Part shown: one piece after another, positions 58,149 through 62,821 of the stretch | Numbering within the stretch: position 1 is the stretch's first letter | Layout: the number at the start of each line of letters is the position of its first letter | Assembly (NCBI GenBank): GCA_015277795.1 | Contig: CP063848.1 | Span: 4,898,001-4,962,000, forward strand | DNA: 64,000 nucleotides | Direction of reading: 5' to 3' | From: Massilia sp. UMI-21 | GTDB lineage: Bacteria > Pseudomonadota > Gammaproteobacteria > Burkholderiales > Burkholderiaceae_D | Position numbers and translations under genes: made by a program | The notes under the pieces: generated by a model | Seen by the model: only the letters and a program-made list of their open reading frames with translations | What the model was told of the DNA's origin: nothing | Databases searched by the model: none

Positions 58149-59042
58149 CTATGATAGCAAGGCCTCTTCCGCTTGCACAGTTTGTGCGTCAGCAGGGGCT
58201 TGCGCGACCGCCGGCAGGGGCTGCGCGTTCGCGGCGTCCGCCAGCTTGCGCAGCAGGTGGCCGGCCGCCACCATGCCGAAGGTGGCCGTGACCACCATGC
58301 TCGAACCGAAGCCGGCGCAGTTCAGGCCGGTAATACCGTTCGGATCCACCGCACAGGCCTCGCCGCTGTCGGGATAGCGCAGCGGCTCCATCGAGAACAC
58401 GGCGTCGATGTGGTACTTGTTCTTCTCGCCCTTGGCGAAACCGTAATGGGCGCGCAGGATCTTGCGCACCTTCTTGAGCAGGGGCTCCTGCTCGGTGCGG
58501 GCCAGGTCGCGCACCTCGATTCTGGTCGGATCGGTCTGGCCGCCGGCGCCGCCGATGACGACCAGGGGCAGCTGCTTGGCGCTGCAATACGCGATCAGGG
58601 CCGCCTTCGACTTGACGCCGTCGATGGCGTCCACGACGTAATCAAAACCTTTACCGGCGATCATCGTCTCGATGTTCTCCGGGTCGATGAAGTCTTCGAC
58701 CAGCGTCACTTTGCAAAATGGGTTGATCTGCGCGATGCGCTCCTTCAGCGCGGCGATCTTGGCCATGCCGATGGTCGAGCTCAAGGCCTGGAGCTGGCGG
58801 TTGATGTTCGATTCGGCCACGTTGTCGAGGTCGATCAGGGTCAGGTGGCCGACGGCGCTGCGCGCCAGCGCCTCGACGATCCAGGAGCCGACGCCGCCGA
58901 CACCGATCACGCAAACGTGCGCCGCACGGAAGCGTTCGAGTGCACGCTCGCCGTAGAGGCGCGCGATCCCGCCGAAGCGGCGCGCAAAGTCGACTTCCTC
59001 GTCCAGGGTGGCTGCCAGGGTAGGGGTATCAATGCGATTCAT
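58149..59042 (-). CDS. tcdA: tRNA threonylcarbamoyladenosine dehydratase
   Basis: 297 residues. E1-like enzyme that cyclises t6A37 to ct6A in tRNA, using ATP. The IGVGGVGSW nucleotide motif, DLDNVAESNINRQ and the catalytic region AIDGVKSK are present; there are scattered Cys (for example CSAKQ). The tail after about residue 275 is Ala/Gln-rich. It is divergent from the hemerythrin-PNPOx gene, 88 bp away. Confidence 0.92.
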   Translation of the reverse strand: MNRIDTPTLAATLDEEVDFARRFGGIARLYGERALERFRAAHVCVIGVGGVGSWIVEALARSAVGHLTLIDLDNVAESNINRQLQALSSTIGMAKIAALKERIAQINPFCKVTLVEDFIDPENIETMIAGKGFDYVVDAIDGVKSKAALIAYCSAKQLPLVVIGGAGGQTDPTRIEVRDLARTEQEPLLKKVRKILRAHYGFAKGEKNKYHIDAVFSMEPLRYPDSGEACAVDPNGITGLNCAGFGSSMVVTATFGMVAAGHLLRKLADAANAQPLPAVAQAPADAQTVQAEEALLS

Positions 59043-59130
59043 CCCGTCATTTTAGCGGACGTCGCTTGCGCATCTGCACTAAAATAACTCCTAGTCAACC
59101 AAATTCTTCTCGTGTGTCAACAAAACGCCA

Positions 59131-60348
59131 ATGACTCTCCACCTGCACGACACCGCCCCCGATTTCGACCAGCCGATCGCCGTCCTCAAGCATTGCCACG
59201 ACCGCATTCGCAAGCAGCTGGCCACCCTCGACAAGCTGCTCGCGCACCTGCCGGAATTCGGCGCCGACGAACAGGCGCGCCAGGCCGCGCGCGCGGTCCT
59301 GAACTACTTCGAGAAGGCGGCCCACCTGCACCACGAGGACGAGGAACAGGACCTGATCCCGATGTTGCGCGCCGTCGCCCAGGGCGAGGACGCGGCCACG
59401 CTGCAGGCGCTGGCGCCGGTGATCCTGCAGGATCACAAGGACATGGATGCGCTGTGGCAGGATTTGCACGAGCAATTGACCGCCATCGCCGAAGGCCAGG
59501 CTGCCACGCTGTCTGCCAGCGCGGTGCAGCGCTTCTGCCAGCGCTATTGTTCCCACATGGAGCGCGAGGAAGGAAGCATGGCGCCGATGGCGCTGCGCCT
59601 GTTCAGCCCGGAGCAGATGGCCCAACTGGGCAAGGCGATGCAGGCACGCCGCGGCATCGGACCAGCCGCGCGCCAGGCTGCGGGAGTCTCCTCCCCTGCC
59701 GCGTCGATCGGTCAGGCCGTGGCCGACCTGCGCAAGGACTACGGCCAGGCCAGCCTGAACGAGACCGACGTGCTGGACGACCCGATCCTGCAGTTCACGC
59801 AGTGGTTCGAGCAGGCGCTGAAGGCCGAGGTGAACGAGCCGAACGCCATGTCGGTGGCCACCGTGGCCGCCAACGGGCGCCCGAGTTCGCGCATCGTGCT
59901 GGTGAAGCAATTCGACGAGCGCGGTTTCACCTGGTATACCAACTACGACAGCCGCAAAGGCCAGGAGTTAGAGGATAATCAATATGCAGCGTTGTTGTTC
60001 TTTTGGAGCGAACTGGAACGCCAGGTTCGCATCGAAGGACGTGTAGAGCGCACCGCGAGCGAGGAAAGCGACCGGTATTTCCGCAGCCGGCCACTGAAAA
60101 GCCGCCTGTCGGCCATTGCCTCGCACCAGAGTGCGCCGATCGGCAGCCGCGCCGAGCTGGAACAGCATTACGAGGCCGTGGCACGGCAGGCCGGTGAAGA
60201 CCCGGCGCGACCAGGCAACTGGGGCGGCTACCGCCTGGTGCCCGAGCGCCTGGAATTCTGGCAGGGGCGCCGCTCCCGCTTCCACGACCGCATCGTCTAC
60301 GAGCGGCAGGAAGACGGCAGCTGGCGCCGCCTGCGCCTGCAACCGTAG
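59131..60348 (+). CDS. pdxH: Hemerythrin domain fused to pyridoxamine/pyridoxine 5'-phosphate oxidase
   Basis: 405 residues in one uninterrupted frame. Residues 1-165 form a hemerythrin-type four-helix bundle with candidate di-iron ligands H21/H23, H65, H68, E72, H102, H142 and E146. A linker of about 30 residues follows. Residues 197-405 are a complete PNPOx: RIVLVKQF for [36 protein letters not shown] and the closing RFHDRIVY. PNPOx makes pyridoxal phosphate using O2. The fused iron/O2-binding domain suggests oxygen supply, sensing or peroxide handling. Usual PdxH proteins are about half this length. A separate start for the oxidase (GTG near residue 197) has no obvious ribosome site. Confidence 0.9.
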
Positions 60349-60411
60349 GCCGGCCGCAGCGCACGCTAGCCATCGAGCGCGCATGCCGGCCGTTCATGCC
60401 GGAGGTATGCC

Positions 60412-61626
60412 GTGTTCGAACAGATGATGCTGTCAGCCTGGAGCACAGGCCTGCGAGACAAGCTGTCCCTGCCCTTGCGGGTCGAACTGTGGGATGGCCG
60501 GCAACTCGAATTCTCCGCCGAACCCGCGCGCGTGACCATCCGGGTGCCGGACCGCGCGGCCTTGCGCTACCTGCGCTCTCCCTCGCTGTACAGCCTGGGA
60601 CGCGCCTATGTCGAGGGCGCGATCGACATCAAGGGATGCGCCGCCGATATCATCCAAGTCGGCAATGCCCTGGCGGCCCACCTGGACAAGGGGCGCGGCC
60701 GGCTGGGCGAGCTGCTGCGCCTGCGCCCCCACCTTGCGCCGCACACCCGCCAGAGCGACGCCGAGGCGATCCGCTACCACTACGACGTCTCCAACGACTT
60801 CTACGCCGCCTGGCTCGATCCGGCCATGGTGTATTCCTGCGCCTACTTCGAGAATGGCGACGAAGACCTGGCCACGGCGCAGCAGAAGAAGATCGACCAC
60901 ATCCTGCGCAAGATCGACCTGCGGCCCGGCCAGCGCCTGCTGGATATCGGCTGCGGCTGGGGCGCGCTGGTGCTGCGCGCCGCGCAAGGGTTCGGTGCCC
61001 GCTGCCTCGGCGTCACCCTGTCCGAGAACCAGGCGCTGCTTGCGCGCGAGCGGATCGCGCGCGCCGGCCTGCAGGGGCAGGTCGAGATCCGCCTGCAGGA
61101 CTACCGCGACGTCGACGGCGAATACGACCGCATCACCAGCGTCGGCATGTTCGAGCACGTCGGCGTACAGCACCTGCCCGCGTATTTCTCGCGCGTGAAC
61201 CGGCTGCTGGCGCCCGACGGCGTCGTCATGAACCACGGGATCACCACCACGAATGTCGACAACAGCGCCACGCCCTACGGCGGTGGCGAATTCATCGACC
61301 AGTATGTGTTCCCGCACGGCGAGCTGGCCCACCTGTCCACGGTGGTGCGGACCATGCAGGAAGGCGGGCTGGAAGTACGCGACGTCGAAAACCTGCGCCG
61401 CCATTATGCAAAGACCTGCGCGATCTGGACCGACAACTTCGAAGGCAATGCCGCGCACATCCGGACCCTGACGGAGGAGAAGCGCTTCCGCATCTGGCAC
61501 CTCTACCTGGCCGGCTGCGCCTACGCCTTCGCGCATGGCCGGATCAGCCTGTACCAGATCGTGTGCGGGAAGGCCGATGGGAACGCGGATCGACTGCCGT
61601 GGTCACGCAAGTACATGTACCCGTAG
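60412..61626 (+). CDS. cfa: Cyclopropane-fatty-acyl-phospholipid synthase
   Basis: 404 residues. Adds a methylene group from SAM to unsaturated phospholipid acyl chains. The SAM site LDIGCGWGALVL lies near residue 177, HYDVSNDFYAAWLD precedes it, and the active-site segment SVGMFEHVG is present. The start is GTG at 60412, with GGAGG eight bases upstream. It stands 63 bp after the PNPOx fusion gene and may be co-transcribed. Confidence 0.95.
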   Translation: MFEQMMLSAWSTGLRDKLSLPLRVELWDGRQLEFSAEPARVTIRVPDRAALRYLRSPSLYSLGRAYVEGAIDIKGCAADIIQVGNALAAHLDKGRGRLGELLRLRPHLAPHTRQSDAEAIRYHYDVSNDFYAAWLDPAMVYSCAYFENGDEDLATAQQKKIDHILRKIDLRPGQRLLDIGCGWGALVLRAAQGFGARCLGVTLSENQALLARERIARAGLQGQVEIRLQDYRDVDGEYDRITSVGMFEHVGVQHLPAYFSRVNRLLAPDGVVMNHGITTTNVDNSATPYGGGEFIDQYVFPHGELAHLSTVVRTMQEGGLEVRDVENLRRHYAKTCAIWTDNFEGNAAHIRTLTEEKRFRIWHLYLAGCAYAFAHGRISLYQIVCGKADGNADRLPWSRKYMYP

Positions 61627-61656: not shown

Positions 61657-62196
61657 CTACTTGAGGCGCTCGCTGAAGGTCTTGCGGAACTTCGCCACCT
61701 TCGGCGCCACCACGAACGCGCAGTAGCCCTGCAAGGGATGCTGCGCGAAATAATTCTGGTGGTAGTCCTCGGCCTTGTACCAGGTCTCCTGCGGCAGCAG
61801 TTGGGTCACGATCGGCGCATCCCACACCGATGCCATTTCGGCCATCACCTGGCGCGCGGTCGCTTCCTGCTCGGGCGAGGTCGTGAAAATCACCGAGCGG
61901 TACTGCGAACCGACGTCGTTGCCCTGGCGGTCCACCGTGGTCGGGTCGTGGATGGTGAAGAAGACCTCCAGGATGTCGCGGTAGCTGATCACCGACGGGT
62001 CGAACTCCACCCGCACCACCTCGGCATGACCGGTCGTGCCGGCGCACACTTGCTCGTACGTCGGCCGGTCGACCTGGCCGCCCATGTAGCCCGATTCCAC
62101 GCGCGTCACGCCGCGCGCCTCGAGGTAGACCGCCTCCAGGCACCAGAAGCATCCGCCCCCCAGAATGGCTACCTCGCTCCCTGCTTGCTCGCTCAT
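61657..62196 (-). CDS. msrA: Peptide methionine sulfoxide reductase A
   Basis: 179 residues. Reduces methionine-S-sulfoxide. Catalytic Cys16 in GGCFWCLEA, with the conserved GYMGG, GHAEVVRVEFDP and YHQNYFA segments. The ATG at 62196 gives the standard start; the frame extends further upstream but through the promoter of the flavin reductase gene on the other strand. Confidence 0.95.
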   Translation of the reverse strand: MSEQAGSEVAILGGGCFWCLEAVYLEARGVTRVESGYMGGQVDRPTYEQVCAGTTGHAEVVRVEFDPSVISYRDILEVFFTIHDPTTVDRQGNDVGSQYRSVIFTTSPEQEATARQVMAEMASVWDAPIVTQLLPQETWYKAEDYHQNYFAQHPLQGYCAFVVAPKVAKFRKTFSERLK

Positions 62197-62314
62197 CGCA
62201 CACCTTGTTTCGTCAGTTTCGATACTTCTTAATGTAACGCAAAGCGCGCTTTCATGCAGGGCGCTCGGGATGAGAAACCGGTCAAGCGTCCGACAGTGGC
62301 ATAATGGCGATCCA

Positions 62315-62821
62315 ATGAATACACGCTCTCCCCGCGCCACGACGCGCGGCTTCGATTCGGCGCATTTTCGCCATGCCCTGTCGCAATTCGCCACCGGTGT
62401 CACCATCATCACCACGCGTCTTGCCGACGGCTCGTTCCGCGGGCTGACCGCCAGTTCCTTCAACTCGGTCTCGCTCGAGCCTCCGCTCGTCCTGTGGAGC
62501 CTGGGCGCCGGCGCCAACAGCCTGCCCATTTTCAGCGGCAACTCGCACTACGTCATCAACGTGCTCGCCGCTGGCCAGCAGGAACTGGCCCTGCGCTTCT
62601 CGCGCCGCAGCGTCGACAATCCCTTCGACGGCGTCGAGTACGAACTGTCGCGGACCGGCCTGCCGATCCTGAAAGGCGTCTCGGCCTGGTTCGAATGCCA
62701 TAACCGCAGCCGCTATCCGGAAGGCGACCACGTCATCTTCGTCGGCGAAGTCGAGGAATGCGCGGTGCACCCGCAACCGGCGCTGCTGTTCCACGGCGGC
62801 CGCTTCGGGGCGACCGGCTAG
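62315..62821 (+). CDS. Flavin reductase-like (DIM6/NTAB) protein
   Basis: 168 residues covering one FMN-binding split-barrel domain. FATGVTIITTRL and the GLTASSFNSVSLEPPL stretch identify the flavin reductase component family of two-component monooxygenases; GDHVIFVGEV closes the fold. No oxygenase partner is adjacent. It probably supplies reduced flavin from NADH. Confidence 0.88.
   Translation: MNTRSPRATTRGFDSAHFRHALSQFATGVTIITTRLADGSFRGLTASSFNSVSLEPPLVLWSLGAGANSLPIFSGNSHYVINVLAAGQQELALRFSRRSVDNPFDGVEYELSRTGLPILKGVSAWFECHNRSRYPEGDHVIFVGEVEECAVHPQPALLFHGGRFGATG

Follow-up and report, generated by a model that had tools for sequence, protein, structure and literature searches.

The DNA analysed here, referred to below as the window, is a stretch of 64,000 nucleotides from Massilia sp. 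UMI-21 (contig CP063848.1, positions 4,898,001 to 4,962,000). Within it, one open reading frame on the forward strand (59131..60348, ATG start) encodes a predicted protein of 405 residues in which an HHE domain (hemerythrin-like, di-iron type) is fused to pyridoxine/pyridoxamine 5'-phosphate oxidase, PdxH. The four-helix HHE domain covers residues ~10-176 (59158..59658) and is followed, on the same strand, by a linker at residues ~177-194 (59659..59712) and a complete PdxH domain at residues 195-405 (59713..60345). Pfam profiles for Hemerythrin (PF01814, residues 15-154, 60.4 bits, cut-off 25.3), PNPOx_N (PF01243, residues 227-351, 102.3, cut-off 28.1) and PNP_phzG_C (PF10590, residues 364-405, 68.1, cut-off 27) are all matched well above threshold. 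The protein also reaches the NCBIfam pdxH equivalog TIGR00558 (261.1 bits, cut-off 180) and does not reach the PhzG model NF038138 (180.3, cut-off 270). An AlphaFold model places helices at residues 15-43, 47-82, 85-120 and 129-157, with a predicted local distance difference test score (pLDDT) of at least 90 at 292 of the 405 residues and below 50 at 179-190, inside the linker. The single reading frame and the profile scores confirm the in-frame joining of an HHE domain to a full-length PdxH that a preliminary description of this DNA had proposed, and we regard the three-part anatomy as nearly certain. In sequence databases the fusion goes by the plain name pyridoxamine 5'-phosphate oxidase. 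A promoter and terminator scan of 58950-60500 found neither.

All di-iron ligands expected of the HHE type appear to be present. The putative ligands are H23 in helix 1 (codon 59197..59199), H67/H68 and, four residues later, E71/E72 in helix 2 (within the codons for H67-H68-E69-D70-E71-E72, 59329..59346), H102 in helix 3 (59434..59436), and H142 and E146 in helix 4 (within the codons for H142 to E147, 59554..59571). They are assigned by pattern rather than structure, and either member of the H67/H68 and E71/E72 pairs may be the one that binds iron. Ten residues (H23, H67, H68, D70, E71, E72, H102, H142, E146 and E147) are identical in all 108 aligned rows with a fusion and all 53 rows with separate HHE and pdxH genes; these 161 linked rows represent 137 distinct sequences, 91 fused and 46 two-gene. 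Among 20 rows from other families, H23 and E146 occur in every one and E147 in nine. The iron-ligand pattern seen in the preliminary description is thus borne out, and its wording of a "near-complete" set needs correction, the set being complete for the HHE type and invariant across the linked rows. Read against oxygen-binding hemerythrin, which has five His, one Glu and one Asp, the conserved set reads as one of His and Glu, in which E146 follows H142 at a distance of four residues; an Asp, D70, is invariant too. These patterns suggest that the HHE half is probably iron-binding and point to a site for two irons. One further position, H21 (59191-59193), is His in all 161 linked rows but in none of the 20 rows from other families, 18 of which have Ala. 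It may be a clade mark or an interface residue, and since the linked set comes from one bacterial family it is perhaps a mere clade mark. Models for other hemerythrin-like proteins are matched weakly: the RIC models TIGR03652 and NF008221 give 24.3 and 14.2 bits, far under their cut-offs of 204.7 and 254, and the model for the ribosome-binding persister protein PA2171 (NF053874) is not reached (28.8 against 190). A Pfam scan of the fusion protein matched neither ScdA_N nor any further N-terminal domain. Five other hemerythrin domains are encoded elsewhere in the source genome.

The PdxH half has the active-site residues expected of the enzyme. By position, K72, Y129 and R133 of Escherichia coli PdxH (active-site numbers here and for H199 come from PDB titles) are matched by K259, Y316 and R320, and S324 is matched likewise. 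H385, the counterpart of H199, lies in an RSRFHDR stretch and was recognized by eye after a one-residue shift. Across the 108 fused rows, the counterparts of E. coli K72, Y129, R133 and S137 are conserved in 108, 106, 106 and 108, respectively. The enzyme also appears to be the only PdxH of its host, whose genome (5.30 Mb, one contig) is 100% complete. Three genes there score over the PNPOx_N cut-off, the fusion at 102.9 bits and two others at 50.1 and 44.5; the latter (L002 and L003) have TIGR03618 as their sole match, below its own cut-off, and do not match the pdxH model. The C-terminal profile PF10590 has a single match, which is the fusion. Thus, no second stand-alone pdxH, whose presence the preliminary description had left to be checked, was found with these two profiles. 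PdxJ, of the de novo route to pyridoxal 5'-phosphate (PLP), is encoded in the same genome. De novo PLP passes through PdxH, so the fused enzyme should be needed for it.

Selection was compared across the parts of 43 fused genes using ratios of nonsynonymous to synonymous substitution rates (dN/dS, NG86). Median dN/dS is 0.18 for PdxH and 0.33 for HHE (695 pairs each), as against 0.69 for the linker (511 pairs); the pairs are not independent and the values are rough. This indicates that both halves are under purifying selection. Between fixed points, the joining stretch is 29 to 67 residues long. A distinct start for the oxidase close to residue 197, which the preliminary description had raised, is unsupported, as no internal start is conserved in the 108 fused rows, some of which represent an organism twice. 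At the position of the former pdxH start there is ATG in none of the rows and GTG in 15. Within -12 to +4 codons of it, ATG occurs in five rows, GTG or TTG in 87 (codons that are common in such GC-rich DNA) and no start codon at all in 20; in only four rows does a Shine-Dalgarno-like word precede a start codon. The source gene has one GTG near this position, without such a word.

The distribution of the fusion was assessed in 294 genomes from 44 genera of the family, of which 276 have a match to the query. A full-length fusion is present in 102 of the 294 (101 rows without a stop, and G018 by direct reading), among them all 27 sampled genomes of the source genus, so the arrangement is conserved well beyond the source organism. 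By organism name, fusions occur in Massilia, Telluria, Duganella, Pseudoduganella and Janthinobacterium. In the protein collection, there were 5170 matches among 8000 candidates scored, and the domain set was identical in 120 of 120 among the matches listed. With a distant fusion as query, 120 of 120 among the matches listed again combined hemerythrin, PNPOx_N and the C-terminal region.

Relatives keep the same two domains as neighboring genes. Named loci with an HHE alignment, the best 80 of 518 confirmed places, comprise 65 with the fusion, 14 with the two genes side by side and one, on a short contig, where pdxH is missing. The two-gene loci belong to Undibacterium, Collimonas, Glaciimonas, Noviherbaspirillum, Herminiimonas, Paucimonas and further relatives. 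In total, 72 of the 294 family genomes have HHE followed by pdxH at one locus: 19 with an in-frame stop between them, and 53 of 60 further genomes that were searched again, in which pdxH immediately follows HHE on the same strand. Two of these 53 (G046 and G088) had only a partial HHE; six of the 66 genomes that had more than one match were left out of this second search, and G222, whose gene contains a stretch of N, was excluded from the counts. Linkage or fusion is therefore found in 174 of the 276 genomes with a match. A twentieth genome with a stop (G102), 1.7 Mb in size and of genus g28, has an open pdxH and an upstream HHE broken by stops (L059, G102:C24:1-4000). In genus g7, whose genomes measure 1.2-2.6 Mb, 13 of 13 sampled genomes have no query match at E <= 1e-10.

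In the two-gene relatives, stops or overlaps fall at the place of the linker, which marks where a stop and a start once stood. Across 55 two-gene rows (46 distinct without L059, L063 and repeats; starts chosen by rule), the spacing is -4, an ATGA overlap, in nine and 1-21 bases in 32, ten of which have exactly 12 bases; the widest gap is 168 bases. In a two-domain tree of 80 representatives and 378 columns, a single branch (support 98/86, and 98% of 200 bootstrap trees) has all 36 fusions on the same side. Some organisms are present twice in the 168 classified rows; repeated and short rows were removed for the trees, and HHE-less genomes are excluded from the two-domain tree by design. L059 (decayed HHE) and L063 (run of N) were dropped from conservation counts and trees, and L123 (no pdxH, short contig) was also dropped. 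No reversion to two genes was seen among the tree rows. Given this placement on one side of one branch, a single fusion, by stop loss between two close genes, is the simplest history. We therefore consider it very probable that a two-gene unit fused once and that Massilia, Duganella, Pseudoduganella and Janthinobacterium have the product in common. Because relatives keep both domains as neighboring genes, the partnership itself is real and conserved. A suspected second, independent fusion in the Undibacterium-type genome G209 (open frames of 450 residues each) was rejected, as direct reading shows stops between the genes.

Searches were extended to the order, class and phylum. The full-length query at E <= 1e-95 gave eight matches in 399 genomes of the order, all in the family, at a threshold that would miss weak distant fusions. 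The HHE profile matched 122 of the 399 (10 in the family) and 44 of 369 genomes of the class, one being the source genome. Around 20 + 43 HHE loci outside the family (one place counted twice), tblastn at E <= 1e-3 found no PdxH within ~1.5-2 kb on each side where the contig allows. The PdxH C-terminal profile matched 250 of 398 genomes of the phylum, and a hemerythrin domain was present in none of the seven non-family PdxH frames of at least 340 residues among the matches listed. Thus, neither fusion nor linkage was found outside the family in the samples taken. Since these searches covered part of the matches, HHE domains of other types may have undergone fusions of their own.

The surrounding locus is conserved too. 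Upstream lies tcdA on the opposite strand (58149..59042; NF011696, 314.7 bits, cut-off 304), and next downstream a cfa gene (60412..61626, forward strand) for a cyclopropane-fatty-acid synthase-like protein, whose best match, NF040703, at 469.4 bits is below its cut-off of 650. Among the same best 80 of 518 places, tcdA accompanies 62 of the 65 fused and all 14 two-gene loci, and cfa 60 and nine of them, respectively. The order is constant: tcdA divergent, HHE, pdxH and often the cfa-like gene. Beyond cfa, a MsrA-like methionine sulfoxide reductase (61657-62541, reverse strand) and a flavin-reductase-like protein (62165-62821, forward strand) were recognized by eye.

PNP oxidase (PdxH) uses O2 and gives hydrogen peroxide (H2O2). 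The C-terminal half of the fusion would, as in E. coli, make PLP from pyridoxine and pyridoxamine 5'-phosphates (PNP and PMP) with flavin mononucleotide (FMN) and O2, releasing H2O2. The N-terminal half would bind two irons, be kept within reach by the flexible linker and act on small oxidants around PdxH. Purifying selection and gene linkage favor a shared role of the two halves, and by analogy the HHE site probably handles H2O2, nitric oxide (NO) or O2 beside the H2O2-making flavoenzyme. Its most likely activity would be that of a low-rate peroxidase or NO peroxidase, or of a redox buffer, consuming H2O2 (and NO) near flavin and PLP. Scavenging of this kind is our first choice because PNP oxidase gives H2O2 and a hemerythrin-like protein (HLP) of Mycobacterium kansasii consumes H2O2 with NO, although we hold it tentatively, at somewhat below even odds. 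According to the available excerpts of PMC8913304, HLP is an NO peroxidase that draws electrons from NO in turning over H2O2, and its catalase activity is weak.

Several observations weigh against this picture of a once-fused pair with a shared role. The AlphaFold model leaves the mutual orientation of the domains unfixed (predicted template modelling score, pTM, 0.53), and a tree of PdxH only, with long branches, splits the fusions, giving three changes for the fused state. In 100 of the 294 family genomes a PdxH match has no HHE neighbor found, a figure counted without viewing each genome singly, from up to six scored candidates per genome among the matches listed. Five of five HHE-less pdxH loci inspected keep tcdA or cfa. 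Conversely, HHE occurs without adjoining pdxH at L123 (contig PKWO01000291.1) and in G095 (L210, C65), on the tcdA or cfa side; in G095 it lies beside cfa, with pdxH (L211) on another contig. Assembly faults are possible at both, L123 being a short contig of a metagenome assembly and G095 consisting of 120 contigs. In the metagenome-derived G019, the fused PdxH (L061/L080, both on one contig, G019:C141:16453-17658) sits on a long branch and carries Asn for Y316 and Gln for R320, the only exceptions at the Y129 and R133 places, with the HHE ligands intact; the genome also has a stand-alone pdxH on another contig (G019:C181:51685-52314). Here, the function of the fused oxidase may have been altered or lost, with HHE retained. 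Given these cases and the many HHE-less relatives, neither HHE nor pdxH strictly needs the other. PdxH is moreover a slow enzyme, so it would yield little H2O2. The M. kansasii precedent is also loose, since HLP has a different ligand set and, in the portion of PMC8913304 available, weak catalase activity.

Instead of scavenging, the di-iron site might sense O2, redox state or NO and alter PdxH activity, comparable to hemerythrin chimeras with GGDEF or HD-GYP domains. The domain order is the same as in hemerythrin-domain chimeras, of which the sensor DcrH is one. However, an allosteric link is expected to need a fixed interface, and the linker is both variable in length and fast-evolving; the two-gene form has no covalent link at all, and PdxH is a housekeeping enzyme. 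We therefore consider regulation by the HHE half possible but unlikely.

It is also conceivable that HHE keeps an independent job and that linkage or fusion merely fixes co-expression. The flexible, fast-evolving linker, the HHE genes of L123 and G095 without adjacent pdxH, and the many pdxH genes without HHE are consistent with this, and the G019 case, with its altered active site, intact ligands and second pdxH, raised our estimate slightly. Linkage or fusion in most of the matching family genomes nevertheless argues against such a neutral outcome, as does the lack of any return to two genes in the two-domain tree, and we judge it rather improbable.

A marginally smaller chance is given to HHE being an iron donor of the RIC/YtfE type, or a protein that repairs nitrosative damage, co-expressed with and then fused to PdxH. 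Its ligand pattern resembles that of YtfE (H84, H129, E133, H160, H204 and E208, in the excerpts of PMC9268430), and the RIC models are matched weakly. However, those scores lie far under the cut-offs, no further N-terminal domain is matched in Pfam, and such a role offers no evident reason for linkage to pdxH. More speculative still would be a flavin/di-iron tandem enzyme, in which the tethered HHE site takes H2O2 or electrons from the FMN of PdxH to oxidize or reduce NO or another small molecule. This is quite improbable; if true, vitamin B6 oxidation would drive detoxification in a convergent counterpart of flavodiiron proteins, and the chemistry would extend to the closely coupled two-gene form. 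Finally, a sequencing or assembly error joining two genes, which the two-gene relatives might call to mind and the preliminary description had raised, is ruled out by the recurrence of the full-length fusion, one-contig genomes included.

Thus, scavenging beside PdxH is retained as the preferred, tentative reading. HHE proteins are common and, to our knowledge, mostly without known function. Here, one has a fixed genetic partner; some genera encode the pair as two closely spaced genes, and others as a fusion, of single origin, to an O2-using flavoenzyme. This arrangement offers a sharp and cheap way to learn what HHE sites do. It hints at an overlooked link between vitamin B6 supply and O2, H2O2 and NO chemistry. 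The fusion also accounts for an annotation error. HHE-only proteins of ~180 residues (P0241, P0244, P0250, P0262 and others) appear in JGI or NCBI records under the name 'pyridoxamine 5'-phosphate oxidase', and the precomputed Pfam list for such proteins gives the hemerythrin domain alone; the name was probably copied from the fusion.

Targeted literature searches, covering titles and the starts of abstracts, returned no description of an HHE-PdxH fusion, in keeping with the preliminary description, which knew of no characterized example; an earlier mention, for instance in the 2008 surveys of hemerythrins in bacteria that PMC9388753 cites, is possible. PdxH fusions as such are not new, since plant PDX3 combines a PNP/PMP oxidase in one chain with an unrelated NAD(P)HX epimerase domain (PMC10517258, in excerpt), and hemerythrin chimeras with catalytic domains are already described in the available part of PMC9388753. 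What is new here is the origin of the fusion from a two-gene unit.

With E. coli PdxH (TIGR00558), the fusion shares the catalytic and C-terminal dimerization regions and the active-site residues, at 39-43% identity to the E. coli structures; it differs in its additional N-terminal HHE of ~175 residues and in a PdxH part without its own ATG. The NMB1532-type HHE protein (PDB 2p0n, function not known) is, unlike the fusion, a stand-alone chain, with Ala where the fusion has H21. RIC/YtfE has in common with the HHE half a pattern of four His and two Glu in a four-helix bundle, whereas the fusion has no ScdA_N domain and scores far under the RIC cut-offs; Neisseria gonorrhoeae RIC likewise has no ScdA_N domain (both as given in excerpts of PMC9268430), and the absence of RIC structures from the aligned rows carries no evidential weight. 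M. kansasii HLP, as the accessible text of PMC8913304 presents it, is also a hemerythrin-like di-iron protein that consumes H2O2, although with different ligands, a five-helix core and no fusion partner. The chimeric sensors Bhr-DGC and Bhr-HD-GYP, in the sections of PMC9388753 available, similarly have a hemerythrin-type domain at the N terminus and a functional domain at the C terminus. In contrast to these, the partner here is a vitamin B6 flavoenzyme, and the ligands follow the HHE-type pattern rather than that of five His, one Glu and one Asp.
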